Positions 1-26,417 of a stretch of 64,000 bases of DNA are shown in pieces. The stretch comes from Crossaster papposus. Lineage: Eukaryota; Echinodermata; Asteroidea; Velatida; Solasteridae. The translations under genes and the position numbers were made by a program. How positions within the stretch are numbered: the stretch's first letter is position 1; each line of letters begins with the position of its first letter. The notes below the pieces were generated by a model. The model saw nothing but the letters and a program-made list of their open reading frames with translations. It did no database searches and was not told where the DNA came from. The stretch spans positions 2,604,001-2,668,000 of the forward strand of contig JBAIAA010000262.1 of assembly GCA_037893245.1 (NCBI GenBank), written 5' to 3'.

Positions 1-59
1 AAGAAAGTGTCTAATTCGTCACTCTGAGTCGAGTACCTCAAGTCATACCAAAAACGTGT

Positions 60-131
60 TAGCAGAGCAAGGTTTCGATCTTCGGACCTCTGGGTTAAGG
101 GCCCAGCACGCTTCCACTGCGCAACTCTACT
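60..131 (-). pseudogene. tRNA-iMet-derived copy with a CTT anticodon
   Basis: The plus strand reads gggttaagggcccag, which gives the anticodon loop CCCTTAA and anticodon CTT (lysine). The T stem has one A-C mismatch and a G-U pair, and the acceptor has one G-U pair. T5 stop downstream. The same anticodon change is shared by several copies in the left and right sub-blocks (for example near 1250, 5000, 6220, 7180, 9130 and 24580), so it spread with the repeat unit. Confidence 0.5.
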
Positions 132-447
132 TCATATCAAGTTAGAAACAGCAAACAAAATGAAAGCAGACATTCTAAAAACATTCTAAAATATTTATTA
201 CATTTGAATAACAGTGAAGCAAAAATACCTCTTTAGCAGAGCGAGGTTTTGGTCTTCGGACCTCTGGGTTATGGGCCCAGCACGCTCTCACTGCAACACT
301 CTGTTTAACGAAAATGAAATCACTATCAAGGAAATAATTATCCTGAGCAGACCGAGGTTGTGGTCATCCGAACTCTCGGTTACTGACCAAGAAAGTGTAT
401 AATTCGTCACTGTGAGTCGAGTACCTCAAGTCATACCAAAAACCTGT

Positions 448-519
448 TAGCAGAGCGAGGTTTCGATTCTCGGACCTCTGGGTTATGGGCCCAGCACGCT
501 TCCACTGCGCCACTCTGCT
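448..519 (-). tRNA. tRNA-iMet (CAT) with the normal T loop and one T-stem mismatch
   Basis: 72 nt on the minus strand, with intact acceptor, D and anticodon arms and the unaltered initiator T loop ATCGAAA. The T stem is CGAGA/CCTCG, an A-C mismatch at the pair closing the loop. The B-box core TCGAAAC is normal, but the second G of the GG before it is A. The T5 stop follows after a 5-nt gap, as in other class A copies. Of the copies with a normal T loop this is the best preserved that I found. Confidence 0.5.
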
Positions 520-1816
520 TCATGTGAATTTAGAAACAGCAAACAAATTAAAGCAGACATTCTAAAAACATTCTAAAATAGTTATTATATTTGAATAACA
601 GTGAAGCAAACATACCTCTTTAGCAGAGCGAAGATTTGGTCTTCGGACCTCTGGGTTATGGGCCCAGCACGCTACCACTGCACCACTCTGCGTAACTATT
701 TTTAATGAAAATGAAATCACTATCAAGGAAATAATTATCCTGAGCAGACCGAGGTTGTGGTCATCCGAACTCTCAGTTACTGACCAAGAAAGTGTCTACT
801 TCGTCACTCTGAGTCGAGTACCTCAAGTCATACCAAAAACATGTTAGCAGAGCGAGGTTTCGATCTTCGGACCTCTGGGTTATGTGCCCAGCACGCTCCC
901 ACTGCTCCACTTTACTTCATGTAAATTTAGAAACAGCAAACAAAATGAAAGCAGACATTCTAAAAACATTCGAAAAATATTTATTAAATTTGAATAACAG
1001 TGAAGCAAAAATACCTCTTTAGCAGAGCGAGGTTTTGGTCTTCGGACCTCTGGGTTATGGGCCCAGCACGCACCCACTGCAACACTCTGCGTAACTATTT
1101 TTAATGAAAATGAAATCAATATCAAGGAAATAATTATCCTGAGCAGACCGAGATTGTGGTCATCCAAACTCTCGGTTACTGACCAAGAAAGTGTCTAATT
1201 CGTCACTCTGAGTCGAGTACCTCAAGTCATACCAAAAACGTGTTAGCAGAGCAAGGTTTCGATCTTCAGACCTCTGGGTTAAGGGCCCAGCACGCTTCCA
1301 CTGCGCCACTCTACTTCATGTAAAGTTAGAAACAGCAAACAAAATGAAAGCAGACATTCTAAAAACATTCTAAAATATTTATTACATTTGAATAACAGTG
1401 AAGCAAAAATACCTCCTTAGCAGAGCGAGGTTTTGGTCCTCGGACCTCTGGGTTATGTGCCCAGCACGCTCCCACTGATCCAATCTACTTCATGTAAATT
1501 TAGAAACAGCAAACAAAATAAAAGCATACATTCTAAAAACATTCTAAAATATTTATTAAATTTGAATAACAGTGAAGCAAAAATACCTCTTTAGCAGAGC
1601 GAGGTTTTGGTCTTCGGACCTCTGGGTTATGGGCCCAGCACGCTCTCACTGCAACACTCTGCATAACTATTTTTAACGAAAATGAAAATCTCTATCAAGG
1701 AAATAATTATCCTGAGCAGACCGAGGTTGTGGTCATCCGAACTCTCGGTTACTGACCAAGAAAATGTCTACTTCGTCACTCTGAGTCGAGTACCTCAAGT
1801 CATACCAAAAACTTGT

Positions 1817-1888
1817 TAGCAGAGCGATGTTTCGATCCTCGGACCTCTGGGTTATGGGCCCAGCACGCTTCCACTGCGCCACTCTGCT
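1817..1888 (-). pseudogene. tRNA-iMet-like copy, T-stem mismatch (969-bp unit, copy 1)
   Basis: Acceptor, D and anticodon arms are intact, with CAT anticodon and normal T loop ATCGAAA. The 3' side of the T stem is CATCG, which leaves a G-A mismatch against CGAGG and alters the last base of the B box. T5 stop 5 nt downstream. A tRNA with one T-stem mismatch could still be made; I list it as a pseudogene for caution. Confidence 0.5.
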
Positions 1889-2110
1889 TCATGTGAATTT
1901 AGAAACAGCAAACAAATTAAAGCAGACATTCTAAAAACATTCTAAAATAGTTATTATATTTGAATAACAGTGAAGCAAACATACCTCTTTAGCAGAGCGA
2001 GGATTTGGTCTTCAGACCTCTGGGTTATGGGCCCAGCACGCTCCCACTGCACCACTCTGCGTAACTATTGTTAATGAAAATGAAATCACTATCAAGGAAA
2101 TAATTATCCT

Positions 2111-2182
2111 GAGCAGACCGAGGTTGTGGTCATCCGAACTCTCGGTTACTGACCAAGAAAATGTCTACTTCGTCACTCTGAG
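2111..2182 (-). pseudogene. Representative class C cassette: old tRNA-iMet fossil
   Basis: A 72-nt segment that aligns to class A end to end with no gap. Counting the consensus by hand gives 50 identical positions of 72, including the acceptor remnants CAGAG and TCTGCT and the T-stem half CCTCG. The anticodon stem still pairs (CTTGG/CCGAG, one wobble), with loop TCAGTAA, anticodon AGT. A and B boxes are lost and no run of four T follows the 3' end. One copy sits in almost every A-B-C unit, always between a B and an A cassette. Confidence 0.6.
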
Positions 2183-2785
2183 TCGAGTACCTCAAGTCAT
2201 ACCAAAAACTTGTTAGCAGAGCGATGTTTCGATCCTCGGACCTCTGGGTTATGGGCCCCGCACGGTTCCACTGCTCCACTTTACTTCATGTAAATTTAGA
2301 AACAGCAAACAAAATGAAAGCAGACATTCTAAAACATTCTAAAATATTTATTACATTTGAATAACAGTGAAGCAAAAATACCTCCTTAGCAGAGCGAGGT
2401 TTTGGTCCTCGGACCTCTGGGTTATGTGCCCAGCACGCTCCCACTGATCCAATCTACTTCATGTAAATTTAGAAACAGCAAACAAAATAAAAGCATACAT
2501 TCTAAAAACATTCTAAAATATTTATTAAATTTGAATAACAGTGAAGCAAAAATACCTCTTTAGCAGAGCGAGGTTTTGGTCTTCGGACCTCTGGGTTATG
2601 GGCCCAGCACGCTCTCACTGCAACACTCTGCATAACTATTTTTAACGAAAATGAAAATCTCTATCAAGGAAATAATTATCCTGAGCAGACCGAGGTTGTG
2701 GTCATCCGAACTCTCGGTTACTGACCAAGAAAATGTCTACTTCGTCACTCTGAGTCGAGTACCTCAAGTCATACCAAAAACTTGT

Positions 2786-2857
2786 TAGCAGAGCGATGTT
2801 TCGATCCTCGGACCTCTGGGTTATGGGCCCAGCACGCTTCCACTGCGCCACTCTGCT
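2786..2857 (-). pseudogene. tRNA-iMet-like copy, T-stem mismatch (969-bp unit, copy 2)
   Basis: Same sequence type as 1817-1888, exactly 969 bp further on, with the same G-A mismatch in the T stem and the same downstream T5. Confidence 0.5.
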
Positions 2858-3529
2858 TCATGTGAATTTAGAAACAGCAAACAAATTAAAGCAGACATTC
2901 TAAAAACATTCTAAAATAGTTATTATATTTGAATAACAGTGAAGCAAACATACCTCTTTAGCAGAGCGAGGATTTGGTCTTCAGACCTCTGGGTTATGGG
3001 CCCAGCACGCTCCCACTGCACCACTCTGCGTAACTATTGTTAATGAAAATGAAATCACTATCAAGGAAATAATTATCCTGAGCAGACCGAGGTTGTGGTC
3101 ATCCGAACTCTCGGTTACTGACCAAGAAAATGTCTACTTCGTCACTCTGAGTCGAGTACCTCAAGTCATACCAAAAACTTGTTAGCAGAGCGATGTTTCG
3201 ATCCTCGGACCTCTGGGTTATGGGCCCCGCACGGTTCCACTGCTCCACTTTACTTCATGTAAATTTAGAAACAGCAAACAAAATGAAAGCAGACATTCTA
3301 AAACATTCTAAAATATTTATTACATTTGAATAACAGTGAAGCAAAAATACCTCCTTAGCAGAGCGAGGTTTTGGTCCTCGGACCTCTGGGTTATGTGCCC
3401 AGCACGCTCCCACTGATCCAATCTACTTCATGTAAATTTAGAAACAGCAAACAAAATAAAAGCATACATTCTAAAAACATTCTAAAATATTTATTAAATT
3501 TGAATAACAGTGAAGCAAAAATACCTCTT

Positions 3530-3601
3530 TAGCAGAGCGAGGTTTTGGTCTTCGGACCTCTGGGTTATGGGCCCAGCACGCTCTCACTGCAACACTCTGC
3601 A
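3530..3601 (-). pseudogene. Representative class B tRNA-iMet-derived cassette
   Basis: 72 nt, about 90% identical to class A. The anticodon arm and CAT anticodon are intact, but the first base no longer pairs, the D stem 5' side has become TTGC, and the T loop has lost the TCGA core (ACCAAAA), which removes the B box. A TTTTT run (plus strand 3517-3521) lies 8 nt downstream. Class B copies occur throughout the left array and are very probably not transcribed from their own promoters. Confidence 0.6.
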
Positions 3602-3753
3602 TAACTATTTTTAACGAAAATGAAATCTCTATCAAGGAAATAATTATCCTGAGCAGACCGAGGTTGTGGTCATCCGAACTCTCGGTTACTGACCAAGAAA
3701 ATGTTTACTTCGTCACTCTGAGTCGAGTACCTCAAGTCATACCAAAAACCTGT

Positions 3754-3825
3754 TAGCAGAGCGATGTTTCGATCCTCGGACCTCTGGGTTATGGGCCCAG
3801 CACGCTTCCACTGCGCCACTCTGCT
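3754..3825 (-). pseudogene. tRNA-iMet-like copy, T-stem mismatch (969-bp unit, copy 3)
   Basis: Third member of the 969-bp series; it lies 968 bp after the second because one A was lost from the spacer. Same T-stem mismatch. The base pattern between T5 and the tRNA is cctgt rather than cttgt on the plus strand. Confidence 0.5.
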
Positions 3826-5991
3826 TCATGTGAATTTAGAAACAGCAAACAAATTAAAGCAGACATTCTAAAAACATTCTAAAATAGTTATTATATTTGA
3901 ATAACAGTGAAGCAAACATACCTCTTTAGCAGAGCGAGGATTTGGTCTTCAGACCTCTGGGTTATGGGCCCAGCACGCTCCCACTGCACCACTCTGCGTA
4001 ACTATTGTTAATGAAAATGAAATCACTATCAAGGAAATAATTATCCTGAGCAGACCGAGGTTGTGGTCATCCGAACTCTCGGTTACTGACCAAGAAAATG
4101 TCTACTTCGTCACTCTGAGTCGAGTACCTCAAGTCATACCAAAAACTTGTTAGCAGAGCGATGTTTCGATCCTCGGACCTCTGGGTTATGGGCCCCGCAC
4201 GGTTCCACTGCTCCACTTTACTTCATGTAAATTTAGAAACAGCAAACAAAATGAAAGCAGACATTCTAAAACATTCTAAAATATTTATTAAATTTGAATA
4301 ACAGTGAAGCAAAAATACCTCTTTAGCAGAGCGAGGTTTTGGTCTTCGGACCTCTGGGTTATGGGCCCAGCACGCTTCCACTGCAACACTCTGCATAACT
4401 ATTTTTAATGAAAATGAAATCACTATCAAGGAAATAATTATCCTGAGCAGACCAAGGTTGTGGTCATCCGAACTCTCGGTTACTGACCAAGAAAGTGTCT
4501 ACTTCGTCACTTTGAGTCGAGTACCTCAAGTCATACCAAAAACCTGTTAACAGAGCGAGGTTTCTATTCTCGGACCTCTGGGTTATGGGCCCAGCACGCT
4601 TCCACTGCGCCACTCTGCTTCATGTGAATTTAGAAACAGCAAACAAATTAAAGCAGACATTCTAAAAACATTCTAAAATATTTATTATATTTGAATAACA
4701 GTGAAGCACACATACCTCTTTAGCATTAGCAGAGCGAAGATTTGGTCTTCGGACCTCTGGGTTATGGGCCCAGCACGCTCCCACTGCACCACTCTGCGTA
4801 AATATTTTTAATGAAAATGAAATCACTATCAAGGAAATAATTATCCTAAGCAGACCGAGGTTGTGGTCATCCGAACTCTCGGTTACTGACCAAGAAAGTG
4901 TCTACTTCGTCACTCTGAGTCGAGTACCTCAAGTCATACCTAAAACATGTTAGCAGAGCAAGGTTTCGATCTTCGGACCTCTGGGTTAAGGACCCAACAC
5001 GCTTCCACTGCGCCACTCTGCTTCATATAAATTTAGAAACAGCAAACGAATGGAAAGCAGACATTCGAAAAACATTTTAAAATATTTATTACATTTGAAT
5101 AACAGTGAAGCAAAAATACCTCTTTAGCAGAGCGAGGTTTTGGTCCTCGGACCTCTGGGTTATGTGCCCAGCACGCTTCCACTGCGCCACTCTGCTTCAT
5201 ATAAATTTAGAAACAGCGAACAAAATGAAAGCAGACATTCTAAAAACATTCTAAAATATTTATTAAATTTGAATAACAGTGAAGCCAAAATACCTCTTTA
5301 GCAGTGCGAGGTTTTGGTCTTCGGACCTCTGGGTTATGGGCCCAGCACGCTCTCACTGCAACACTCTGCATAACTATTTTTAATGAAAATGAAATCACTA
5401 TCAAGGAAATAATTATCCTGAGCAGACCGAGGTTGTGGTCATCCGAACTCTCGGTTACTGACCAAGAAAATGTCTACTTCGTCACTCTGAGTCGAGTACC
5501 TCAAGTCATACCAAAAACTTGTTAGCAGAGCGATGTTTCGATCCTCGGACCTCTGGGTTATGGGCCCCGCACGGTTCCACTGCGCCACTCTGCTTCATAT
5601 GAATTTAGAAACAGCAAACAAAATGAAAGCAGACATTCTATAAACATTTTAACATATTTATTACATTTGAATAACAGTGAAGCAAAAATACCTCTTTAGT
5701 AGAGCGAGGTTTTGGTCTTCGGACCTCTGGGTTATGTGCCCAGCACGCTCCCACTGATCCAATCTACTTCATGTAAATTTAGAAACAGCAAACAAAATAA
5801 AAGCATACATTCTAAAAACATTCTAAAATATTTATTAAATTTGAATAACAGTGAAGCAAAAATACCTCTTTAGCAGAGCGAGGTTTTGGTCTTCGGACCT
5901 CTGGGTTATGGGCCCAGCACGCTCTCACTGCAACACTCTGCGTAACTATTTTTAATGAAAATGAAATCACTATCAATGAAATAATTATCCT

Positions 5992-6063
5992 GAGCAGACC
6001 GAGGTTGTGGTCATCCGAACTCTCAGTTACTGACCAAGAAAGTGTCTACTTCGTCACTCTGAG
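5992..6063 (-). pseudogene. Class C cassette, first of a tandem pair
   Basis: Normal class C cassette, but followed on the plus strand by gagtcattatatcaatg, so the A and B cassettes that should come next are missing and a second C begins 99 bp later. Confidence 0.55.
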
Positions 6064-6090
6064 TCATTATATCAATGAAATAATTATCCT

Positions 6091-6162
6091 GAGCAGACCG
6101 AGGTTGTGGTCATCCGAACTCTCAGTTACTGACCAAGAAAGTGTCTACTTCGTCACTCTGAG
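6091..6162 (-). pseudogene. Class C cassette, second of a tandem pair
   Basis: Same sequence as the C cassette at 5992-6063, at a distance of 99 bp. The linker tatcaatgaaataattatcc is repeated too, so this is a local 99-bp tandem duplication or an unequal exchange. Confidence 0.55.
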
Positions 6163-6193
6163 TCGAGTACCTCAAGTCATACCAAAAACATGT

Positions 6194-6265
6194 TAGCAGA
6201 GCGAGGTTTCGATCTTCGGACCTCTGGGTTAAGGACCCAACACGCTTCCACTGCTCCACTTTACT
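6194..6265 (-). pseudogene. tRNA-iMet-derived copy with a CTT anticodon, further decayed
   Basis: The anticodon loop reads TCCTTAA from plus-strand ttaagga. The D-arm side and the 5' acceptor half (ctttact on the plus strand) are also changed, so the acceptor no longer pairs fully. It keeps the T5 stop. Confidence 0.5.
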
Positions 6266-7736
6266 TCATGTAAATTTAGAAACAGCAAACAAAATGAAAG
6301 CAGACATTCGAAAAACATTCTAAAATATTTATTACATTTGAATAACAGTGAAGCAAAAATACCTCTTTAGCAGAGCGAGGTTTTGGTCTTCGGACCTCTG
6401 GGTTATGGGCCCAGCACGCTCCCACTGCAACACTCTGCGTAACTATTTTTAATGAAAATGAAATCACTATCAAGGAAATAATTATCCTGAGCAGACCGAG
6501 GTTGTGGTCATCTGAACTCTCGGTTACTGACCAAGAAAGTGTCTACTTCGTCACTCTGAGTCGAGTACCTCAAGTCATACCTAAAACATGTTAGCAGAGC
6601 GAGGTTTCGATCTTCGTACCTTTGGGTTAAGGACCCAACACGCTTCCACTGCGCCACTCTGCTTCATATAAATTTAGAAACAGCAAACGAATGGAAAGCA
6701 GACATTCTAAAAACATTTTAAAATATTTATTACATTTGAATAACAGTGAAGCAAAAATACCTCTTTAGCAGAGCGAGGTTTTGGTCCTCGGACCTCTGGG
6801 TTATGTGCCCAGCACGCTCCCACTGCTCCACTTTACTTCATGTAAATTTAGAAACAGCAAACAAAATGAAAGCAGACATTCTAAAAACATTCGAAAAATA
6901 TTTATTAAATTTGAATAACAGTGAAGCAAAAATACCTCTTTAGCAGAGCGAGGTTTTGGTCTTCGGACCTCTGGGTTATGGGCCCAGCACGCTCCCACTG
7001 CAACACTCTGCGTAACTATTTTTAATGAAAATGAAATCAACATCAAGGAAATAATTATCCTGAGCAGACCGAGATTGTGGTCATCCGAACTCTCGGTTAC
7101 TGACCAAGAAAGTGTCTAATTCGTCACTCTGAGTCGAGTACCTCAAGTCATACCAAAAACGTGTTAGCAGAGCAAGGTTTCGATCTTCAGACCTCTGGGT
7201 TAAGGGCCCAGCACGCTTCCACTGCGCCAATCTACTTCATGTAAAGTTAGAAACAGCAAACAAAATGAAAGCAGACATTCTAAAAACATTCTAAAATATT
7301 TATTACATTTGAATAACAGTGAAGCAAAAATACCTCCTTAGCAGAGCGAGGTTTTGGTCCTCGGACCTCTGGGTTATGTGCCCAGCACGCTCCCACTGAT
7401 CCAATCTACTTCATGTAAATTTAGAAACAGCAAACAAAATAAAAGCATACATTCTAAAAACATTCTAAAATATTTATTAAATTTGAATAACAGTGAAGCA
7501 AAAATACCTCTTTAGCAGAGCGAGGTTTTGGTCTTCGGACCTCTGGGTTATGGGCCCAGCACGCTCTCACTGCAACACTCTGCATAACTATTTTTAACGA
7601 AAATGAAATCTCTATCAAGGAAATAATTATCCTGAGCAGACCGAGGTTGTGGTCATCCGAACTCTCGGTTACTGACCAAGAAAATGTCTACTTCGTCACT
7701 CTGAGTCGAGTACCTCAAGTCATACCAAAAACTTGT

Positions 7737-7808
7737 TAGCAGAGCGATGTTTCGATCCTCGGACCTCTGGGTTATGGGCCCAGCACGCTTCCACTGCGCC
7801 ACTCTGCT
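7737..7808 (-). pseudogene. tRNA-iMet-like copy, T-stem mismatch
   Basis: Same type as 1817-1888: CAT anticodon, ATCGAAA T loop, a single G-A mismatch in the T stem and a T5 stop. It is repeated at 9675-9746, offset 1938. Confidence 0.5.
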
Positions 7809-9674
7809 TCATGTGAATTTAGAAACAGCAAACAAATTAAAGCAGACATTCTAAAAACATTCTAAAATAGTTATTATATTTGAATAACAGTGAAGCAAAC
7901 ATACCTCTTTAGCAGAGCGAGGATTTGGTCTTCAGACCTCTGGCTAATGGGCCCAGCACGCTCCCACTGCACCACTCTGCGTAACTATTGTTAATGAAAA
8001 TGAAATCACTATCAAGGAAATAATTATCCTGAGCAGACCGAGGTTGTGGTCATCCGAACTCTCGGTTACTGACCAAGAAAATGTCTACTTCGTCACTCTG
8101 AGTCGAGTACCTCAAGTCATACCAAAAACTTGTTAGCAGAGCGATGTTTCGATCCTCGGACCTCTGGGTTATGGGCCCCGCACGGTTCCACTGCTCCACT
8201 TTACTTCATGTAAATTTAGAAACAGCAAACAAAATGAAAGCAGACATTCTAAAACATTCTAAAATATTTATTAAATTTGAATAACAGTGAAGCAAAAATA
8301 CCTCTTTAGCAGAGCGAGGTTTTGGTCTTCGGACCTCTGGGTTATGGGCCCAGCACGCTCCCACTGCAACACTCTGCATAACTATTTTTAATGAAAATGA
8401 AATCACTATCAAGGAAATAATTATCCTGAGCAGACCAAGGTTGTGGTCATCCGAACTCTCGGTTACTGACCAAGAAAGTGTCTACTTCGTCACTTTGAGT
8501 CGAGTACCTCAAGTCATACCAAAAACCTGTTAACAGAGCGAGGTTTCTATTCTCGGACCTCTGGGTTATGGGCCCAGCACGCTTCCACTGCGCCACTCTG
8601 CTTCATGTGAATTTAGAAACAGCAAACAAATTAAAGCAGACATTCTAAAAACATTCTAAAATAATTATTATATTTGAATAACAGTGAAGCAAAAATACCT
8701 CTTTAGCAGAGCGAGGTTTTGGTCCTCGGACCTCTGGGTTATGTGCCCAGCACGCTCCCACTGCTCCACTTTACTTCATGTAAATTTAGAAACAGCAAAC
8801 AAAATGAAAGCAGACATTCTAAAAACATTCGAAAAATATTTATTAAAATTGAATAACAGTGAAGCAAAAATACCTCTTTAGCAGAGCGAGGTTTTGGTCT
8901 TCGGACCTCTGGGTTATGGGCCCAGCACGCACCCACTGCAACACTCTGCGTAACTATTTTTAATGAAAATGAAATCAACATCAAGGAAATAATTATCCTG
9001 AGCAGACCGAGATTGTGGTCATCCGAACTCTCGGTTACTGACCAAGAAAGTGTCTAATTCGTCACTCTGAGTCGAGTACCTCAAGTCATACCAAAAACGT
9101 GTTAGCAGAGCAAGGTTTCGATCTTCAGACCTCTGGGTTAAGGGCCCAGCACGCTTCCACTGCGCCAATCTACTTCATGTAAAGTTAGAAACAGCAAACA
9201 AAATGAAAGCAGACATTCTAAAAACATTCTAAAATATTTATTACATTTGAATAACAGTGAAGCAAAAATACCTCCTTAGCAGAGCGAGGTTTTGGTCCTC
9301 GGACCTCTGGGTTATGTGCCCAGCACGCTCCCACTGATCCAATCTACTTCATGTAAATTTAGAAACAGCAAACAAAATAAAAGCATACATTCTAAAAACA
9401 TTCTAAAATATTTATTAAATTTGAATAACAGTGAAGCAAAAATACCTCTTTAGCAGAGCGAGGTTTTGGTCTTCGGACCTCTGGGTTATGGGCCCAGCAC
9501 GCTCTCACTGCAACACTCTGCATAACTATTTTTAACGAAAATGAAATCTCTATCAAGGAAATAATTATCCTGAGCAGACCGAGGTTGTGGTCATCCGAAC
9601 TCTCGGTTACTGACCAAGAAAATGTCTACTTCGTCACTCTGAGTCGAGTACCTCAAGTCATACCAAAAACTTGT

Positions 9675-9746
9675 TAGCAGAGCGATGTTTCGATCCTCGG
9701 ACCTCTGGGTTATGGGCCCAGCACGCTTCCACTGCGCCACTCTGCT
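9675..9746 (-). pseudogene. tRNA-iMet-like copy, T-stem mismatch
   Basis: Counterpart of 7737-7808 at the 1938-bp offset, with the same sequence features. Confidence 0.5.
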
Positions 9747-13573: not shown

Positions 13574-14421
13574 TCATGTGAATTTAGAAACAGCAAAAAA
13601 AATAAAAGCAGACATTATAAAAACATTCTAAAATATTTATTACATTTGAATAACAGTGAATCAAAAATGCCTCTTTAGCAGAGCGGGGTTTTGGTCTTCG
13701 GACCTCTTGGTTATGGGCCCAGCACGCTCCCACTGCGCCACTGCGCCACTCTGCTTCATGTGAATTTAGAAACAGCAAACAAAATTAAAGCAGACATTCT
13801 AAAAATATTCTAAAATAGTTATTATATTTGAATAACAGTGAAGCAAAAATAAATCTTTAGCAGAGCGAGGTTTTGGTCTTCGGACCTCTGGGTTATGTGC
13901 CCAGCACGCTCCCACTGCTCCACTATACTTCATGTAAATTTAGAAACAGCAAACAAAATGAAAGCAGACATTCTAAAAACATTCTAAAATATTTATTAAA
14001 TTTGAATAACAGTGAAGCAAAAATACCTCTTTAGAAAAGCGAGGTTTTGGTCTTCGGACCTCTGGGTTATGGGCCCAGCACGCTCCCATTGCGCCACTCT
14101 GCTTCATGTAAATTTAGAAACAGCAAACAAAATGAAAGCAGACATTCTAAAAACATTCTAAAATATTTATTACATTTGAATAACAGTGAAGCAAAAATAC
14201 CTCTTTAGCAGAGCGAGGTTTTGGTCTTCGGACCTCTGGGTTATGGGCCCAGCACGCTCCCACTGCAACACTCTGCGTATAATGAAAATGAAATCACTAT
14301 TAAGGAAATAATTATCCTGAGCAGACCGAGGTTGTGGTCATCCGAACTGTCGGTTACTGACCAAGAAAGTGTCTACTTCGTCACTCTGAGTCGAGTACCT
14401 CAAGTCATACCAAAAACTTGT

Positions 14422-14667: not shown

Positions 14668-15375
14668 TATAATGAAAATGAAATCACTATTAAGGAAATA
14701 ATTATCCTGAGCAGACCGAGGTTGTGGTCATCCGAACTCTCGGTTACTGACCAAGAAAGTGTCTACTTCGTCACTCTGAGTCGAGTACCTCAAGTCATAC
14801 CAAAAACTTGTTAGCAGAGCGAGGTTCCAATCCTCGGACCTCTGAGTTATGGGCCCAGCACGCTTCCACTGCGCCACTCTGCTTCATATGAATTTAGAAA
14901 TAGAAAACAAAATGAAAGCAGACATTCTAAAAACATTCTAAAATATTTATTATATTTTAATAACAGTGAAGCAAACATTCCTCTTTAGCAGAGGGAGGTT
15001 TTGGTCCTCGGACCTCTTGGTTATGTGCCCAGCACGCTCCCACTGCTCCACTCTACTTCATGTAAATTTATAAACAGCAAACAAAATGAAAGCAGACATT
15101 GTAAAAACATTCTAAAATATTTTTTAAATTTGAATAACAGTGAAGCAAAAATACCTCTTTAGCAGAGCGAGGTTTTGGTCTTCGGACCTCTGGGTTATGG
15201 GCCCAGCACGCTCCCACTGCAACACTCTGCGTATAATGAAAATGAAATCACTATTAAGGAAATAATTATCCTGAGCAGACCGAGGTTGTGGTCAACCGAA
15301 CTCTCGGTTACTGACCAAGAAAGTGTCTACTTCGTCACTCTGAGTCGAGTACCTCAAGTCATACCAAAAACTTGT

Positions 15376-15447
15376 TAGCAGAGCGAGGTTCCGATCCTCG
15401 GACCTCTGAGTTATGGGCCCAGCACGCTTCCACTGCGCCACTCTGCT
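15376..15447 (-). tRNA. tRNA-iMet (CAT), class A, one extra G-U pair in the anticodon stem
   Basis: Same sequence type as 14422-14493: stems pair with one G-U in the anticodon stem, CAT anticodon, T loop ATCGGAA and a T5 stop 5 nt downstream. It belongs to a 564-bp unit. Its counterpart at offset 4773 is 20149-20220. Confidence 0.5.
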
Positions 15448-17826
15448 TCATATGAATTTAGAAATAGAAAACAAAATGAAAGCAGACATTCTAAAAACAT
15501 TCTAAAATAATTATTATATTTTAATAACAGTGAAGCAAACATTCCTCTTTAGCAGAGGGAGGTTTTGGTCCTCGGACCTCTGGGTTATGTGCCCAGCACG
15601 CTCCCACTGCTCCACTCTACTTCATGTAAATTTATAAACAGCAAACAAAATGAAAGCAGACATTGTAAAAACATTCTAAAATATTTATTAAATTTGAATA
15701 ACAGTGAAGCAAAAATACCTCTTTAGCAGAGCGAGGTTTTGGTCTTCGGACCTCTGGGTCATAGGCCCAGCACGCTCCCATTGCTCCACTCTGCTTCATG
15801 TAAATTTAGAAACAGCAAACAAAATGAAAGCAGACATTCTAAAAACATTCTAAAATATTTATTACATTTGAATAACAGTGAAGCAACAATACCTTTTTAG
15901 CAGAGCGAGGTTTTGGTCTTCGGACCTCTGGGTTATGGGTCCAGCACGCTCCCACTACAACCCTCTGCGTAACTATTGTTAATGAAAATGAAATCACTAT
16001 CAAGGAAATAATTATCCTGAGCAGACCGAGGTTGTGGTCATCCGAACTCTCGGTTACTGACCAAGAAAGTGTCTACTTCGTCACTCTGAGTCGAGTACCT
16101 CAAGTCATACCAAAAACTTGTTAGAAGAGCGAGGTTCCGATCCTCGGACCTCTGGGTTATGGGCCCAGCACGAGTCCACTGCGCCACTCTGCTTCATGTG
16201 AATTGAGAAACAGCAAACAAAATAGAAGCAGACATTATAAAAACATTCTAAAATATTTATTACATTTGAATAACAGTGAATCAAAAATACCTCTTTAGCA
16301 GAGCGAGGTTTTGGTCTTCGGATCTCTTGGTTATGGGCCCAGCACGCTCCCACTGCGCCACTCTGCTTCATGTGAATTTAGAAACAGCAAACAAAATTAA
16401 AGCAGACATTCTAAAAATATTCTAAAATAGTTATTATATTTGAATAACAGTGAAGCAAAAATAAATCTTTAGCAGAGCGAGGTTTTGGTCTTCGGACCTC
16501 TGGGTTATGGGCCCAGCACGCTCCCACTGCAACACTCTGCGTAACTATTTTTAATAAAAATGAAATCACTATCAAGGAAATAATTATCCTGAGCAGACCG
16601 AGGTTGTGGTCATCCGAACTCTCGGTTACTGACCAAGACAGTGTCTACTTCGTCACTCCGAGTCGAGTACCTCAAGTCATACCAACAACTTGTTAGCAGA
16701 GCGAGGTTTTGATCCTCGGACCTCTGGGTTATGGGCCCAGCACGCTTCCACTACGCCACTCTGCTTCATGTGAATTTACAAACAGCAAACAAAATTAAAG
16801 CAGACATTCTAAAAACATTCTAAAATAGTTATTATATTTGAATAACAGTGAAGCAAAAATAAATCTTTAGCAGAGCGAGGTTTTGGTCTTCGGACCTCTG
16901 GGTTATGGGCCCAGCGCGCTCCCACTGCACCAGTCTGCGTAACTATTTAAATGAAAATGAAATCACTATCAATGAAATAATTATCCTGAGCAGACCGAGG
17001 TTGTGGTTATCCGAACTCTCGGTTACTGACCAAGAAAGTGTCTACTTCGTCACTCTGAGTCGAGTACCTCAAGTCATACCAAAAACTTGTTAGCAGAGCG
17101 AAGTTCCGATCCTCGGACCTCTGGGTTATGGGCCCAGCACGCTTCCACTGCGCCACTCTGCTTCATATGAATTTAGAAATAGAAAACAAAATAAAAGCAG
17201 ACATTCTAAAAACATTCTAAAATATTTATTACATTTGAATAACAGTGAATCAAACATTCCTCTTTAGCAGAGGGAGGTTTTGGTCTTCGGATCTCTGGGT
17301 TATGTGCCCAGCACGCTCCCACTGCTCCACTCTACTTCATGTAAATTTATAAACAGCAAACAAAATGAAAGCAGACATTGTAAAAACATTCTAAAATATT
17401 TATTAAATTTGAATAACAGTGAAGCAAAAATACCTCTTTAGCAGAGCGAGGTTTTGGTCTTCGGACCTCTGGGTCATAGGCCCAGCACGCTCCCATTGCG
17501 CCACTCTGCTTCATGTAAATTTAGAAACAGCAAACAAAATGAAAGCAGACATTCTAAAAACATTCTAAAATATTTATTACATTTGAATAACAGTGAAGCA
17601 AAAATACCTTTTTAGCAGAGCGAGGTTTTGGTCTTCGGACCTCTGGGTTATGGGTCCAGCACGCTCCCACTACAACACTCTGCGTAACTATTGTTAATGA
17701 AAATGAAATCACTATCAAGGAAATAATTATCCTGAGCAGACCGAGGTTGTGGTCATCCGAACTCTCGGTTACTGACCAAGAAAGTGTCTACTTCGTCACT
17801 CTGAGTCGAGTACCTCAAGTCATACC

Positions 17827-17831
17827 AAAAA
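17827..17831 (-). terminator. Polymerase III T5 terminator of the 17837-17908 tRNA
   Basis: Five A on the plus strand, TTTTT on the minus strand, 5 nt after the discriminator base. Most class A cassettes have the same stop at the same distance; class B cassettes have one about 8 nt downstream. Confidence 0.6.
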
Positions 17832-17836
17832 CTTGT

Positions 17837-17908
17837 TAGCAGAGCGAGGTTCCGATCCTCGGACCTCTGGGTTATGGGCCCAGCACGCTTCCACTGCGCC
17901 ACTCTGCT
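17837..17908 (-). tRNA. tRNA-iMet (CAT), complete cloverleaf, class A
   Basis: Read on the minus strand this is a 72-nt initiator tRNA. Every stem pairs: acceptor AGCAGAG/CTCTGCT, D stem GCGC/GCGT (one G-U), anticodon stem CTGGG/CCCAG and T stem CGAGG/CCTCG, with discriminator A. The anticodon loop CCCATAA gives CAT and has the C33 typical of animal initiators. The A box TGGCGCAGTGG matches the polymerase III consensus. The T loop is ATCGGAA, one change from the normal initiator ATCGAAA, and this also alters the B box. A TTTTT stop lies 5 nt past the 3' end (plus strand 17827-17831). No CCA is encoded, as expected in eukaryotes. If transcribed it would be a candidate initiator tRNA; being one unit of a satellite makes function uncertain. 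Confidence 0.62.
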
Positions 17909-18623
17909 TCATATGAATTTAGAAATAGAAAACAAAATGAAAGCAGACATTCTAAAAACATTCTAAAATATTTATTACATTTGAATAACAGTGAAGCAAA
18001 CATTCCTCTTTAGCAGAGCGAGGTTTTGGTCCTCGGACCTCTGGGTTATGGGCCCAGCGCGCTCCCACTGCACCAGTCTGCGTAACTATTTAAATGAAAA
18101 TGAAATCACTATCAAGGAAATAATTATCCTGAGCAGACCGAGGTTGTGGTTATCCGAACTCTCGGTTACTGACCAAGAAAGTGTCTACTTCGTCACTCTG
18201 AGTCGAGTACCTCAAGTCATACCAAAAACTTGTTAGCAGAGCGAGGTTTCGATCCTCGGTCCTCTGGGTTATGGGCCCAGCACGAGTCCACTGCGCCACT
18301 CTGCTTCATGTGAATTGAGAAACAGCAAACAAAATAAAAGCAGACATTATAAAAATATTCTAAAATATTTATTACATTTGAATAACAGTGAAGCAAAAAT
18401 ACCTCTTTAGCAGAGCGAGGTTTTGGTCTTCGGACCTCTGGGTTATGGGTCCAGCACGCTCCCACTGCAACACTCTGCGTATAATGAAAATGAAATCACT
18501 ATTAAGGAAATAATTATCCTGAGCAAATCGAGGTTGTGGTCATCCGAACTCTCGGTTACTGACCAAGAAAGTGTCTACTTCGTCACTCTGAGTCGAGTAC
18601 CTCAAGTCATACCAAAAACTTGT

Positions 18624-18695
18624 TAGCAGAGCGAGGTTCCGATCCTCGGACCTCTGGGTTATGGGCCCAGCACGCTTCCACTGCGCCACTCTGCT
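18624..18695 (-). tRNA. tRNA-iMet (CAT), complete cloverleaf, class A
   Basis: Identical in structure to the copy at 17837-17908: all stems pair, CAT anticodon, intact A box, and the same single T-loop change (ATCGGAA). TTTTT stop at plus-strand 18614-18618. The two copies are 787 bp apart, the sum of a 390- and a 397-bp unit. Confidence 0.62.
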
Positions 18696-20148
18696 TCATA
18701 TGAATTTAGAAATAGAAAACAAAATGAAATCAGACATTCTAAAAACATTCTAAAATATTTATTACATTTGAATAACAGTGAAGCAAACATTCCTCTTTAG
18801 CAGAGCGAGGTTTTGGTCCTCGGACCTCTGGGTTATGGGCCCAGCGCGCTCCCACTGCACCAGTCTGCGTAACTATTTAAATGAAAATGAAATCACTATC
18901 AATGAAATAATTATCCTGAGCAGACCGAGGTTGTGGTTATCCGAACTCTCGGTTACTGACCAAGAAAGTGTCTACTTCGTCACTCTGAGTCGAGTACCTC
19001 AAGTCATACCAAAAACTTGTTAGCAGAGCGAGGTTTTGGTCTTCGGACCTCTGGGTTATGTGCCCAGCACGCTCCCACTGCTCCACTATACTTCATGTAA
19101 ATTTAGAAACAGCAAACAAAATGAAAGCAGACATTCTAAAAACATTCTAAAATATTTATTAAATTTGAATAACAGTGAAGCAAAAATACCTCTTTAGAAA
19201 AGCGAGGTTTTGGTCTTCGGACCTCTGGGTTATGGGCCCAGCACGCTCCCATTGCGCCACTCTGCTTCATGTAAATTTAGAAACAGCAAACAAAATGAAA
19301 GCAGACATTCTAAAAACATTATAAAATATTTATTACATTTGAATAACAGTGAAGCAAAAATACCTCTTTAGCAGAGCGAGGTTTTGGTCTTCGGACCTCT
19401 GGGTTATGGGCCCAGCACGCTCCCACTGCAACACTCTGCGTATAATGAAAATGAAATCACTATTAAGGAAATAATTATCCTGAGCAGACCGAGGTTGTGG
19501 TCATCCGAACTCTCGGTTACTGACCAAGAAAGTGTCTACTTCGTCACTCTGAGTCGAGTACCTCAAGTCATACCAAAAACTTGTTAGCAGAGCGAGGTTC
19601 CGATCCTCGGACCTCTAAGTTATGGGCCCAGCACGCTTCCACTGCGCCACTCTGCTTCATATGAATTTAGAAATAGAAAACAAAATGAAAGCAGACATTC
19701 TAAAAACATTCTAAAATATTTATTATATTTTAATAACAGTGAAGCAAACATTCCTCTTTAGCAGAGGGAGGTTTTGGTCCTCGGACCTCTGGGTTATGTG
19801 CCCAGCACGCTCCCACTGCTCCACTCTACTTCATGTAAATTTATAAACAGCAAACAAAATGAAAGCAGACATTGTAAAAACATTCTAAAATATTTATTAA
19901 ATTTGAATAACAGTGAAGCAAAAATACCTCTTTAGCAGAGCGAGGTTTTGGTCTTCGGACCTCTGGGTTATGGGCCCAGCACGCTCCCACTGCAACACTC
20001 TGCGTATAATGAAAATGAAATCACTATTAAGGAAATAATTATCCTGAGCAGACTGAGGTTGTGGTCATCCGAACTCTCGGTTACTGACCAAGAAAGTGTC
20101 TACTTCGTCACTCTGAGTCGAGTACCTCAAGTCATACCAAAAACTTGT

Positions 20149-20220
20149 TAGCAGAGCGAGGTTCCGATCCTCGGACCTCTGAGTTATGGGCCCAGCACGC
20201 TTCCACTGCGCCACTCTGCT
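20149..20220 (-). tRNA. tRNA-iMet (CAT), class A, one extra G-U pair in the anticodon stem
   Basis: Counterpart of 15376-15447 at the 4773-bp offset, with the same G-U pair in the anticodon stem, the ATCGGAA T loop and the T5 stop. The next copy to the left, 19585-19656, has two G-U pairs in that stem. Confidence 0.5.
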
Positions 20221-22259
20221 TCATATGAATTTAGAAATAGAAAACAAAATGAAAGCAGACATTCTAAAAACATTCTAAAATATTTATTATATTTTAATAA
20301 CAGTGAAGCAAACATTCCTCTTTAGCAGAGGGAGGTTTTGGTCCTCGGACCTCTGGGTTATGTGCCCAGCACGCTCCCACTGCTCCACTCTACTTCATGT
20401 AAATTTATAAACAGCAAACAAAATGAAAGCAGACATTGTAAAAACATTCTAAAATATTTATTAAATTTGAATAACAGTGAAGCAAAAATACCTCTTTAGC
20501 AGAGCGAGGTTTTGGTCTTCGGACCTCTGGGTCATAGGCCCAGCACGCTCCCATTGCTCCACTCTGCTTCATGTAAATTTAGAAACAGCAAACAAAATGA
20601 AAGCAGACATTCTAAAAACATTCTAAAATATTTATTACATTTGAATAACAGTGAAGCAACAATACCTTTTTAGCAGAGCGAGGTTTTGGTCTTCGGACCT
20701 CTGGGTTATGGGTCCAGCACGCTCCCACTACAACCCTCTGCGTAACTATTTTTAATGAAAATGAAATCACTATCAAGGAAATAATTATCCTGAGCAGACC
20801 GAGGTTGTGGTCATCCGAACTCTCGGTTACTGACCAAGAAAGTGTCTACTTCGTCACTCTGAGTCGAGTACCTCAAGTCATACCAAAAACTTGTTAGAAG
20901 AGCGAGGTTCCGATCCTCGGACCTCTGGGTTATGGGCCCAGCATGCTTCCACTGCGCCACTCTGCTTCATATGAATTTAGAAATAGAAAACAAAATGAAA
21001 GCAGACATTCTAAAAACATTCTAAAATATTTATTACATTTGAATAACAGTGAAGCAAACATTCCTCTTTAGCAGAGCGAGGTTTTGGTCCTCGGACCTCT
21101 GGGTTATGGGCCCAGCGCGCTCCCACTGCACCAGTCTGCGTAACTATTTAAATGAAAATGAAATCACTATCAAGGAAATAATTATCCTGAGCAGACCGAG
21201 GTTGTGGTTATCCGAACTCTCGGTTACTGACCAAGAAAGTGTCTACTTCGTCACTCTGAGTCGAGTACCTCAAGTCATACCAACAACTTGTTAGCAGAGC
21301 GAGGTTTTGATCCTCGGACCTCTGGGTTATGGGCCCAGCACGCTTCCACTACGCCACTCTGCTTCATGTGAATTTACAAACAGCAAACAAAATTAAAGCA
21401 GACATTCTAAAAACATTCTAAAATAGTTATTATATTTGAATAACAGTGAAGCAAAAATAAATCTTTAGCAGAGCGAGGTTTTGGTCTTCGGACCTCTGGG
21501 TTATGGGCCCAGCGCGCTCCCACTGCACCAGTCTGCGTAACTATTTAAATGAAAATGAAATCACTGTCAATGAAATAATTATCCTGAGCAGACCGAGGTT
21601 GTGGTTATCCGAACTCTCGGTTACTGACCAAGAAAGTGTCTACTTCGTCACTCTGAGTCGAGTACCTCAAGTCATACCAAAAACTTGTTAGCAGAGCGAG
21701 GTTTTGGTCTTCGGACCTCTGGGTTATGTGCCCAGTACGCTCCCACTGCTCCACTATACTTCATGTAAATTTAGAAACAGCAAACAAAATGAAAGCAGAC
21801 ATTCTAAAAACATTCTAAAATATTTATTAAATTTGAATAACAGTGAAGCAAAAATACCTCTTTAGAAAAGCGAGGTTTTGGTCTTCGGACCTCTGGGTTA
21901 TGGGCCCAGCACGCTCCCATTGCGCCACTCTGCTTCATGTAAATTTAGAAACAGCAAACAAAATGAAAGCAGACATTCTAAAAACATTATAAAATATTTA
22001 TTACATTTGAATAACAGTGAAGCAAAAATACCTCTTTAGCAGAGCGAGGTTTTGGTCTTCGGACCTCTGGGTTATGGGCCCAGCGCGCTCCCACTGCACC
22101 AGTCTGCGTAACTATTTAAATGAAAATGAAATCACTATCAATGAAATAATTATCCTGAGCAGACCGAGGTTGTGGTTATCCGAACTCTCGGTTACTGACC
22201 AAGAAAGTGTCTACTTCGTCACTCTGAGTCGAGTACCTCAAGTCATACCAAAAACTTGT

Positions 22260-22331
22260 TAGCAGAGCGAGGTTCCGATCCTCGGACCTCTGGGTTATGG
22301 GCCCAGCACGCTTCCACTGCGCCACTCTGCT
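22260..22331 (-). tRNA. tRNA-iMet (CAT), complete cloverleaf, class A
   Basis: Third copy with all stems paired, CAT anticodon, intact A box and the ATCGGAA T loop. TTTTT stop at plus-strand 22250-22254. Its upstream spacer differs slightly from the copies at 17837 and 18624 (gaatttcgaaatag). Confidence 0.62.
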
Positions 22332-22656
22332 TCATATGAATTTCGAAATAGAAAACAAAATGAAAGCAGACATTCTAAAAACATTCTAAAATATTTATTA
22401 CATTTGAATAACAGTGAAGCAAACATTCCTCTTTAGCAGAGCGAGGTTTTGGTCCTCGGACCTCTTGGTTATGGGCCCAGCGCGCTCCCACTGCACCAGT
22501 CTGCGTAACTATTTAAATGAAAATGAAATCACTATCAAGGAAATAATTATCCTGAGCAGACCGAGGTTGTGGTTATCCGAACTCTCGGTTACTGACCAAG
22601 AAAGTGTCTACTTCGTCACTCTGAGTCGAGTACCTCAAGTCATACCAAAAACTTGT

Positions 22657-22728
22657 TAGCAGAGCGAGGTTTCGATCCTCGGACCTCTGGGTTATGGGCC
22701 CAGCACGAGTCCACTGCGCCACTCTGCT
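22657..22728 (-). pseudogene. tRNA-iMet-like copy with normal T arm and D-arm change
   Basis: Same variant as 13502-13573: perfect T arm with ATCGAAA loop, CAT anticodon, D stem mismatched by the cgagtcc change. Confidence 0.5.
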
Positions 22729-23625
22729 TCATGTGAATTGAGAAACAGCAAACAAAATAGAAGCAGACATTATAAAAACATTCTAAAATATTTATTACAT
22801 TTGAATAACAGTGAATCAAAAATACCTCTTTAGCAGAGCGAGGTTTTGGTCTTCGGATCTCTTGGTTATGGGCCCAGCACGCTCCCACTGCGCCACTCTG
22901 CTTCATTTGAATTTAGAAACAGCAAACAAAATTAAAGCAGACATTCTAAAAATATTCTAAAATAGTTATTATATTTGAATAACAGTGAAGCAAAAATAAA
23001 TCTTTAGCAGAGCGAGGTTTTGGTCTTCGGACCTCTGGGTTATGGGCCCAGCACGCTCCCACTGCAACACTCTGCGTAACTATTTTTAATAAAAATGAAA
23101 TCACTATCAAGGAAATAATTATCCTGAGCAGACCGAGGTTGTGGTCATCCGAACTCTCGGTTACTGACCAAGACAGTGTCTACTTCGTCACTCTGAGTCG
23201 AGTACCTCAAGTCATACCAACAACTTGTTAGCAGAGCGAGGTTTTGATCCTCGGACCTCTGGGTTATGGGCCCAGCACGCTTCCACTACGCCACTCTGCT
23301 TCATGTGAATTTACAAACAGCAAACAAAATTAAAGCAGACATTCTAAAAACATTCTAAAATAGTTATTATATTTGAATAACAGTGAAGCAAAAATAAATC
23401 TTTAGCAGAGCGAGGTTTTGGTCTTCGGACCTCTGGGTTATGGGCCCAGCGCGCTCCCACTGCACCAGTCTGCGTAACTATTTAAATGAAAATGAAATCA
23501 CTATCAATGAAATAATTATCCTGAGCAGACCGAGGTTGTGGTTATCCGAACTCTCGGTTACTGACCAAGAAAGTGTCTACTTCGTCACTCTGAGTCGAGT
23601 ACCTCAAGTCATACCAAAAACTTGT

Positions 23626-23697
23626 TAGCAGAGCGAGGTTTCGATCCTCGGACCTCTGGGTTATGGGCCCAGCACGAGTCCACTGCGCCACTCTGCT
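23626..23697 (-). pseudogene. tRNA-iMet-like copy with normal T arm and D-arm change
   Basis: Same variant as 13502-13573. The spacer that follows on the plus strand has a run of nine A (aaacagggaaaaaaaaa), which is unusual among the spacers. Confidence 0.5.
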
Positions 23698-24499
23698 TCA
23701 TGTGAATTTAGAAACAGGGAAAAAAAAAATAAAAGCAGACATTATAAAAACATTCTAAAATATTTATTACATTTGAATAACAGTGAATCAAAAATACCTC
23801 TTTAGCAGAGCGAGGTTTTGGTCTTCGGATCTCTGAGTTATGGGCCCAGCACGCTTCCACTGCGCCACTCTGCTTCATATGAATTAAGAAATAGAAAACA
23901 AAATGAAAGCAGACATTCTAAAAACATTCTAAAATATTTATTACATTTGAATAACAGTGAAGCAAACATTCCTCTTTAGCAGAGGGAGGTTTTGGTCCTC
24001 GGACCTCTGGGTTATGTGCCCAGCACGCTCCCACTGCTCCACTCTACTTCATGTAAATTTATAAACAGCAAACAAAATGAAAGCAGACATTGTAAAAACA
24101 TTCTAAAATATTTATTAAATTTGAATAACAGTGAAGCAAAAATACCTCTTTAGCAGAGCGAGGTTTTGGTCTTCGGACCTCTGGGTCATAGGCCCAGCAC
24201 GCTCCCATTGCGCCACTCTGCTTCATGTAAATTTAGAAACAGCAAACAAAATGAAAGCAGACATTCTAAAAACATTCTAAAATATTTTTTACATTTGAAT
24301 AACAGTGAAGCAAAAATACCTTTTTAGCAGAGCGAGGTTTTGGTCTTCGGACCTCTGGGTTATGGGTCCAGCACGCTCCCACTACAACACTCTGCGTAAC
24401 TATTTTTAATGAAAATGAAATCACTATCAAGGAAATAATTATCCTGAGCAGACCGAGGTTGTGGTCATCCGAACTCTCGGTTACTGACCAAGAAAGTGT

Positions 24500-26417
24500 C
24501 TACTTCGTCACTCTGAGTCGAGTACCTCAAGTCATACCTAAAACATGTTAGCAGAGCGAGGTTTCGATCTTCGTACCTCTGGGTTAAGGACCCAACACGC
24601 TTCCACTGCGCCACTCTGCTTCATATAAATTTAGAAACAGCAAACGAATGGAAAGCAGACATTCTAAAAACATTCTAAAATATTTATTAAATTTGAATAA
24701 CAGTGAAGCAAAAATACCTCTTTAGCAGAGCGAGGTTTTGGTCTTCGGACCTCTGGGTTATGGGCCCAGCACGCTCCCACTGCAACACTCTGCGTAACTA
24801 TTTTTAATGAAAATGAAATCACTATCAAGGAAATAATTATCCTGAGCAGACCGAGATTGTGGTCATCCGAACTCTCGGTTACTGACCAAGAAAGTATATA
24901 ATTCGTCACTCTGAGTCGAGTACCTCAAGTCATACCAAAAACGTGTTAGCAGAGCAAGGTTTCGATCTTCGGACCACTTGGTTAATGGCCCAGCACGCTT
25001 CCACTGCGCCACTCTACTTCATGTAAAGTTAGAAACAGCAAACAAAATGAAAGCAGACATTCTAAAAACATTCTAAAATATGTATTACATTTGAATAACA
25101 GTGAAGCAAAAATACCTCCTTAGCAGAGCGATGTTTCGATCCTCGGACCTCTGGGTTATGTGCCCAGCACGCTCCCAATGCTCCACTCTACTTCATGTAA
25201 ATTTAGAAACAGCAAACAAAATGAAAGCAGACATTCTAAAACATTCTAAAATATTTATTAAATTTGAATAACAGTGAAGCAAAAATACCTCTTTAGCAGA
25301 GCGAGGTTTTGGTCTTCGGACCTCTGGGTTATGGGCCCAGCACGCTCCCACTGCAACACTCTGCATAACTATTTTTAATGAAAATGAAATCACTATCAAG
25401 GAAATAATTATCCTGAGCAGACCGAGGTTGTTGTCATCCGAACTCTCGTTTACTGACCAAGAAAGTGTCTACTTCGTCACTCTGAGTCGAGTACCTCAAG
25501 TCATACCAAAAACATGTTAGCAGAGCGAGGTTTCGATCTTCGGACCTCTGGGTTAAGGACCCAACACGCTTCCACTGCGCCACTCTGCTTCCTATCAATT
25601 TAGAAACAGCAAACGAATGGAAAGCATACATTCTAAAAACATTTTAAAATATTTATTACATTTGAATAACAGTGAAGCAAAAATACCTCTTTAGCAGAGC
25701 GATGTTTTGGTCCTCGGACCTCTGGGTTATGTGCCCAGCACGCTCCCACTGCTCCACTTTACTTCATGTAAATTTAGAAACAGCAAACAAAATGAAAGCA
25801 GACATTCTAAAAACATTCTAAAATATTTATTAAATTTGAATAACAGTGAAGCAAAAATACCTCTTTAGCAGAGCGAGGTTTTGGTCTTCGGACCTCTGGG
25901 TTATGGGCCGAGCACGCTCCCACTGCAACACTCTGCGTAACTATTTTTAATGAAAATGAAATCACTATCAAGGAAATAATTATCCTGAGCAGACCGAGAT
26001 TGTGGTCATCCGAACTCTCGGTTACTGACCAAGAAAGTGTATAATTCGTCACTCTGAGTCGAGTACCTCAAGTCATACCAAAAACGTGTTAGCAGAGCAA
26101 GGTTTCGATCTTCGGACCTCTTGGTTAAGGGCCCAGCACGCTTCCACTGCGCCACTCTACTTCATTTAAAGTTAGAAACAGCAAACAAAATGAAAGCAGA
26201 CATTCTAAAAACATTCTAAAATATGTATTACATTTGAATAACAGTGAAGCAAAAATACCTCCTTAGCAGAGCGATGCTTCGATCCTCGGACCTCTGGGTT
26301 ATGTGCCCAGCACGCTCCCACTGCTCCACTTTACTTCATGTAAATTGAGAAACAGCAAACAAAATGAAAGCAGACATTCTAAAAACATTCTAAAATATTT
26401 ATTACATTTGAATAACA
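24500..26417 (-). repeat. Right sub-block of the tRNA-iMet satellite, same family as the left one
   Basis: After about 24530 the sequence returns to the left-hand family: the linker reads ctaaaacatgttagcagagc, the anticodon loop ttaagga, and the spacer gcaaacgaatggaaagc. The same combination occurs near 6580-6700. The last spacer ends with gaataaca at 26417, where the 67-bp satellite starts. Confidence 0.7.

Follow-up and report, generated by a model that had tools for sequence, protein, structure and literature searches.

The first 26,417 bp of the 64,000-nt stretch of Crossaster papposus DNA analysed here (the window; C262:2604001-2668000, where C262 is contig JBAIAA010000262.1 of a 1.02-Gb genome in 1841 contigs) form the edge of a megabase array of segments derived from initiator methionine tRNA (iMet). 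The array works like a satellite, being a long head-to-tail arrangement of short units that form higher-order repeats and are locally homogenised. Its building blocks are tRNA genes, and taken as a whole it does not show the purifying selection expected of a functional tRNA cluster. Our preferred reading, which we consider likely, is a satellite of the nuclear genome that derives from initiator tRNA genes, is organised in higher-order repeats and carries its intact genes mostly as passengers.

The tRNA segments and the repeat unit

Positions 1-26417 are filled head to tail by overlapping or adjoining repeat rows with periods of about 174 and 397 bp (Tandem Repeats Finder, TRF); the small gaps between the rows are also occupied by tRNA segments in our segment map. 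Along the minus strand, the unit runs A segment, spacer, C segment, spacer, B2 segment and a linker of about 100 bp, for a total of 397-398 bp. Optional extra modules of 174 bp (a B1 segment plus linker) sit between B2 and the next A. A subfamily of 390-bp units has a B2-C gap of 36 nt instead of 44 nt (for example, at 14280-14315). The array and representative elements in the window are as follows.

1..26417, minus (sense strand of the tRNA segments): iMet-derived satellite, array edge (TRF, ARAGORN, Rfam, segment map, genome search and sampling)
3754..3825, minus: example A-position segment, one change from modal iMet (Rfam 51.0 bits; ARAGORN Met CAT; segment map)
3744..3748, minus: run of five T (T5) at nt 6-10 past the 3′ end of this A copy, resembling an RNA polymerase III (Pol III) terminator (sequence reading)
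3648..3726, minus: example C-position segment and a few bases of flank; this class is the most diverged and has lost the cloverleaf (segment map; consensus comparison)
3530..3601, minus: example B2-position segment, B box degenerate (segment map)
3428..3529, minus: linker of about 100 bp, component of the 174-bp module (TRF, sequence, segment map)
3356..3427, minus: example B1-position segment on an extra 174-bp module of tRNA plus linker (TRF, segment map, flank sorting)
5971..6164, no strand: local 99-bp duplication of the C region (TRF, 2.0 copies, 100% matches)
438..4383, no strand: higher-order repeat with a 968/969-bp period (self-comparison, segment spacing)

All 42 tRNAs that ARAGORN called in the window lie between 60 and 26161 and read from the minus strand: 31 Met(CAT), 9 Lys(CTT), 1 Ile and 1 Asn. 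The segment map shows that the non-Met calls are anticodon changes within the same iMet-like segments. ARAGORN has no power to separate initiator from elongator Met; the segments are assigned to the initiator because the modal A sequence displays A1-T72, three G-C pairs (GGG/CCC) under the anticodon loop and a T-loop ATCGAAA with A54 and A60, which we take to be initiator hallmarks. The 86 tRNA matches that Rfam gave at or above the gathering score are likewise confined to the minus strand; no other family reached that score anywhere in the window, including the 67-bp satellite that follows the array. A tolerant regular-expression map yielded 189 segments, and profile extraction 188 full 72-nt ones (53 A, 33 B1, 50 B2 and 52 C). 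The original prediction of 72-nt iMet-like segments at 1..26417 is thus borne out by TRF, ARAGORN, Rfam and the segment map, and a lack of iMet similarity in classes A and B, which it had named as the outcome that would speak against it, was not observed. The coordinates it gave do hold the array, but only the outer 26 kb of a megabase structure.

Segments from the window and from samples across the genome were filtered from 1400 profile hits to 1368 of full length, 1351 with full flanks and 1316 of 72 nt. Each was placed by its 5′ and 3′ flanks, with a forced choice of the best match from three words on either side; this gave 391 C, 378 B2, 360 A and 181 B1 segments and 6 recombinants. With 1310 of the 1316 falling into four flank contexts, it was the unit as a whole that was amplified. 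Distances of these flank-sorted segments from modal iMet are 0-11 for A (mean 3.6), 0-10 for B1 (mean 5.9), 5-12 for B2 (mean 8.3) and 21-28 for C (mean 23.1), so that the ranges of A and B overlap and that of C lies apart. The consensus sequences of B1 and B2 differ from modal A at 5 and 6 positions, two of them in the B box, and that of C at 22.

By its sequence, and only by it, the C class is recognisable as related to iMet: its consensus is identical to A at 50 of 72 positions, while 20,000 mononucleotide shuffles give a mean of 18 and a maximum of 32. Of 21 cloverleaf pairs, C segments retain a mean of 13.4 and A segments 19.8; in window positions 1-2700, Rfam did not match C at E<=1.

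The sequence just past the segments bears on whether tRNA genes or a tandemly amplified tRNA-derived short interspersed nuclear element (SINE) lie at the origin of the array. Tandem SINE satellites are known and tRNA-headed repeats are common, a background that lends the SINE some plausibility. In the array, however, T5 runs lie within about 13 nt of the mature 3′ end, as in genes (nt 6-10 in the commonest A flank and nt 9-13 in the commonest B flank), each unit holds three tRNA segments, and no A-rich or simple-repeat tail was seen by eye in the unit consensus. In a genome search with the unit, all the matches listed lie on C262 and a second contig, C146, and in a search with the linker so do 40 of 40 scored matches (of 1121 candidates). 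With T5 directly past the tRNA, no tail, and no dispersed copy among those 40 scored matches, we rejected a SINE origin as extremely improbable. Runs of four or more T (T4 or longer) lie within 25 nt of the end in 350 of 393 A copies and 116 of 394 C copies, and the commonest C flank is without T4.

The classes had been proposed to represent three ages of initiator tRNA. This holds as an ordering by distance from iMet; it does not hold for diversity among units, which differs little between A, B and C, and therefore the classes were amplified together. A FastTree analysis of 60 segments per class plus the modal sequence grouped A and B apart from C with a node support of 0.149, and A, B1 and B2 did not form separate clades. 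Amplification of a unit with several tRNA segments, as originally proposed, accordingly agrees with the flank contexts; the successive tRNA duplications proposed to have preceded it are not shown by the tree. The classes could alternatively be old paralogues that were captured together.

Extent of the array and its junction

The array was traced by sampling 10-kb stretches (20), 1.5-kb stretches (18), 0.6-kb stretches (20) and a single 9.4-kb stretch, some of which lie outside the array. By this spaced sampling, the array on C262 starts between 265.6 and 280 kb and ends at 2,630,417, a length of about 2.35 Mb, and every stretch sampled between 280 kb and the window contained it, two of them being partly insert. 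On C146 it starts between 5.44 and 5.46 Mb and ends at about 6,719,682 (about 1.26 Mb); sampling there was thin, with about 12 kb of array entering the counts, and the sample at 6.2 Mb is not satellite. The 1316 full segments come from about 205 kb of sampled array, a density of 6.4 per kb; four small non-array loci among the count sources (L038, L041-L043) contain no segments and lie outside the 205 kb. Extrapolation from the sample would put some 20,000 segments on the two contigs, with exact iMet copies numbering between several hundred and about a thousand.

At its right end in the window, the array abuts a different satellite.

26417..26418, no strand: junction between the tRNA satellite and the 67-bp satellite (sequence; comparison with C146)
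26418..64000, no strand: 67-bp satellite, about 561 copies (TRF)

The corresponding junction on C146 lies at the same point of the linker and has nearly the same first-monomer variants. An alignment of the two contigs over 3.7 kb at the junction, mostly 67-bp satellite, shows about 4% difference; just before the junction, the window carries an additional 174-bp module that C146 lacks. Repeat arrays are generally error-prone in assembly, and either a chimeric junction or the false expansion of a small cluster might in principle have produced such a picture. A shared breakpoint on two contigs that differ by about 4% and by a whole module makes an error at the junction unlikely, and a chimeric join was rejected on this ground. 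The sampled segments also comprise 493 distinct 72-mers among 1316; altogether, we give an assembly artefact virtually no credence. The two contigs may be two haplotypes or two chromosomes: they share the junction, but the sampled left flanks of their arrays differ, with a 217-bp satellite on C146 and other repeats on C262.

Intactness, selection and homogenisation

Higher-order periods of 801, 968/969, 1144 and 3237 bp and longer were found in the array. In the window, positions 438-3415 match 1406-4383 at 97.5% over 2982 bp. The 801-bp repeat occurs in four 10-kb samples (L011-L014), whose copies are 95-99.7% alike, mostly 98% or more; the left block to which we refer below (sampled at 0.30-0.81 Mb of C262) is the most homogeneous part of the array. 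Array polarity flips at C262:640.6-670 kb, inside the 801-bp block, and the best match across the switch is 99.5%. The sequence similarity suggests a recent inversion at C262:640600-670000.

To describe intactness, we scored the 1316 segments as 393 A, 151 B1, 378 B2 and 394 C; the A copies comprise 220 from the middle region of C262, 99 from the left block, 53 from the window and 21 from the C146 samples. The modal iMet sequence is found exactly in 69 of the 1316 segments (by flank 52 A, 15 B1 and 2 recombinants), none of them in the window, and 55 of the 69 have T4 or longer within 25 nt. The set of identity elements that we take to mark the initiator (A1-T72, GGG/CCC, CAT, A54, A58, A60) is complete in 212/393 A, 108/151 B1, 0/378 B2 and 0/394 C copies. 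Most A copies still match the A box, the B box and the terminator. When the identity set, both boxes, T4 within 25 nt and 21/21 cloverleaf pairs were required together, 78 of the 393 A copies and none of the 923 B1, B2 and C copies had all features. By region, these are 77/220 in the middle, 1/21 on C146, 0/53 in the window and 0/99 in the left block.

In the left block, not one of the 99 A copies has all 21 pairs, and not one has the iMet identity set. Homogenisation there has spread broken copies.

Constraint was examined as mean pairwise diversity by region, with 334 of 337 units grouped.

Middle region: A 0.047, linker 0.062, A-C spacer 0.042, C-B spacer 0.044
Left block: A 0.068, linker 0.055, A-C spacer 0.055, C-B spacer 0.077
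Edge: A 0.086, linker 0.059, A-C spacer 0.030, C-B spacer 0.040
C146: A 0.064, linker 0.063, A-C spacer 0.039, C-B spacer 0.040

The A segment is not consistently less diverse than the spacers (in the middle region, its diversity exceeds that of C and of both spacers), and its stems and loops are alike, with substitution rates of 0.050 and 0.045, respectively, over 393 copies. The 813 altered pairs in these copies include 455 that are broken, 346 that still pair after a one-sided change and 12 compensatory changes. There was no sign of CpG decay among middle and edge units (transitions 0.018 at CpG sites and 0.016 at other C/G). Because A evolves much like the spacers, most copies are best seen as passengers that homogenisation has kept young. 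Passenger here means the absence of a clear signal of constraint, not the absence of transcription.

Some observations weigh against this reading. In the middle region, 68 of 220 A copies are exact modal iMet and 77 have all features, as a functional array would likewise show. The A segment is also less diverse than the linker in the middle region (0.047 versus 0.062), and in the left block its diversity (0.068) lies below that of the C-B spacer (0.077). The intact copies would fit a functional amplification, in which the array is a working reservoir of iMet genes, for example in oocytes or early embryos, like the oocyte-type tandem tRNA genes of Xenopus; tandem tRNA genes that are switched on at zygotic genome activation are reported for Xenopus (PMC11500080). 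Also in its favour are the 69 exact modal segments, 55 of them with a T run, and the 78 copies with both boxes, terminator, full pairing and identity set. We nevertheless hold such a reservoir to be unlikely: the tRNA is not consistently more conserved than the spacer, its stems are unprotected, the most homogenised block has 0/99 intact copies, and 921 of 923 B and C segments are without a B-box match (B2 alone has 2 matches in 378 copies).

Promoter features and cloverleaf are separated in the left block, where the A box is matched in 99/99, the B box in 98/99 and a T4 run is present in 97/99 A copies, with no complete cloverleaf. This pattern would fit a Pol III promoter satellite, in which TFIIIC binding or Pol III transcription, rather than the tRNA, would matter, perhaps at chromatin borders or in centromere transcription. 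We judge it very improbable, given that only 37/53 A copies in the window and 10/21 in the C146 samples have a B-box match and that the box is lost in B and C. The retention of boxes in the left block reflects few independent events, because the block has been homogenised from about two A variants with the 801-bp period. A more far-reaching version would have the satellite kept and spread as a Pol III/TFIIIC platform, with a centromere-like region on the iMet promoter and intact copies possibly feeding hundreds of iMet genes to oocytes; to this we assign a low probability.

Relation to known tRNA arrays and neighbouring repeats

Under the preferred reading of a tRNA-derived satellite with passenger genes, a short cluster of iMet genes or pseudogenes (A, C and B, each with its own flanks) would have become the unit of about 397 bp with its optional 174-bp module. 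The A, B and C members may have originated stepwise. Unequal exchange, or a similar process of tandem amplification, would have spread the unit, and homogenisation would have produced the nested higher-order repeats whose periods we observe. The array would be part of a satellite chain, with the tRNA satellite followed by 67-bp and then 86-bp satellites, which is probably located in constitutive heterochromatin.

The Xenopus tandem unit of 3.18 kb contains iMet genes. The oocyte-specific tandem tRNA genes of this animal resemble the sea star array in being tandem tDNA, with iMet used as a (plasmid) test gene for embryonic Pol III activation. They are reported to be active (PMC11500080), whereas most segments of the sea star array are defective. 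In Hydractinia, tandem non-coding RNA arrays have been reported (PMC11067881); the sea star array differs in consisting of one tRNA species, with divergent classes in a 0.4-kb unit, and in its megabase length and higher-order repeats. Entamoeba tRNA arrays are likewise built of tandem units, each with as many as 5 tRNA genes, but hold almost all tRNA genes and make up >10% of the genome (PMC2652664); unlike them, the sea star array has many degenerate copies, and only iMet-derived segments were seen in it. The human tRNA variable-number tandem repeat at 1q23.3 is also a tandem repeat with tRNA genes and variable copy number, yet its unit is 7.3 kb long and GC-rich, is present in 9-43 copies per allele and contains several tRNA species and CTCF sites (PMC4041453).

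In its nested higher-order repeats, homogenised blocks, polarity switch, transposable element inserts and more diverged variants at the edge, the array is like alpha-satellite-type arrays (PMC4233971 on alpha satellites and repeats derived from non-coding RNA). Unlike alpha satellite, its monomer is a recognisable and partly intact RNA gene. Large tDNA clusters arose independently many times in eukaryotes, according to a 2010 survey (PMC2888827), and no iMet-derived satellite with higher-order repeats was found in the titles and abstract openings of the papers listed from the open-licence PMC literature searched, one of which (PMC10335936) mentions 'tRNA satellite' once. The array thus presents a satellite whose parent gene is recognisable, locally intact and amplified to megabase scale, so that the path from an RNA gene cluster to a higher-order satellite is readable in one array. 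For annotation, it serves as a warning: by extrapolation, a tRNA scan of this genome would probably return thousands of iMet hits, few of which would have to be genes. Should transcription of the array occur, one could test directly whether satellite evolution can be driven by the supply of initiator tRNA or by Pol III chromatin.

The 67-bp satellite reaches beyond 2.91 Mb on C262 and extends from 6.72 Mb to at least 6.85 Mb on C146. It is 95% identical at a lag of one unit, and its 20 best lags are the first 20 multiples of 67, in order, with no higher-order peak among them. Words from the 67-bp satellite and from the linker gave 0 matches in viral contigs. An 86-bp satellite is found at the ends of C146 (L043) and C262 (L046), and also at L054, L055 and L066; because both contigs end in it, they break inside the same repeat. 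The C262 sample at 3.13 Mb contains neither the 67-bp nor the 86-bp satellite. On the other side of the tRNA array, the 217-bp satellite occupies C146 at 5.0-5.44 Mb (L030-L032, L058) and was not seen in the C262 left-flank samples. Beside the left edge of the C262 array, L050 (C262:265001-265600) holds the end of a dispersed element that recurs on several contigs as inverted pairs spaced about 7-14 kb, likely a large terminal-inverted-repeat transposon.

Inserts interrupt the array at 1.20 and 1.30 Mb of C262. Two related inserts, L017:3881-5967 and L017:6375-8022 (also in L016), lie in opposite orientation and are about 97% alike; each has a hairpin-like self-complementary end of about 109 bp, and they are perhaps a DNA transposon. 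Another insert, L018:5540-10000, is at least 4.5 kb long and contains a diverged short tandem repeat, of roughly 60-75 bp as judged by eye, with many GAGGTTGGACCTCG-like palindromes.

Among the other contigs, C1841 (16,330 bp) is mitochondrial and has the sea-star gene order, by which the host is very probably a sea star. It starts with a tRNA, followed by 12S (assigned by reading, with no Rfam hit) and two tRNAs. Next come a large-subunit rRNA match and ND2-like and ND1-like frames (named by reading), all on the minus strand. A COX1-like frame of 518 aa, also named by reading, is open under the echinoderm code on the plus strand.

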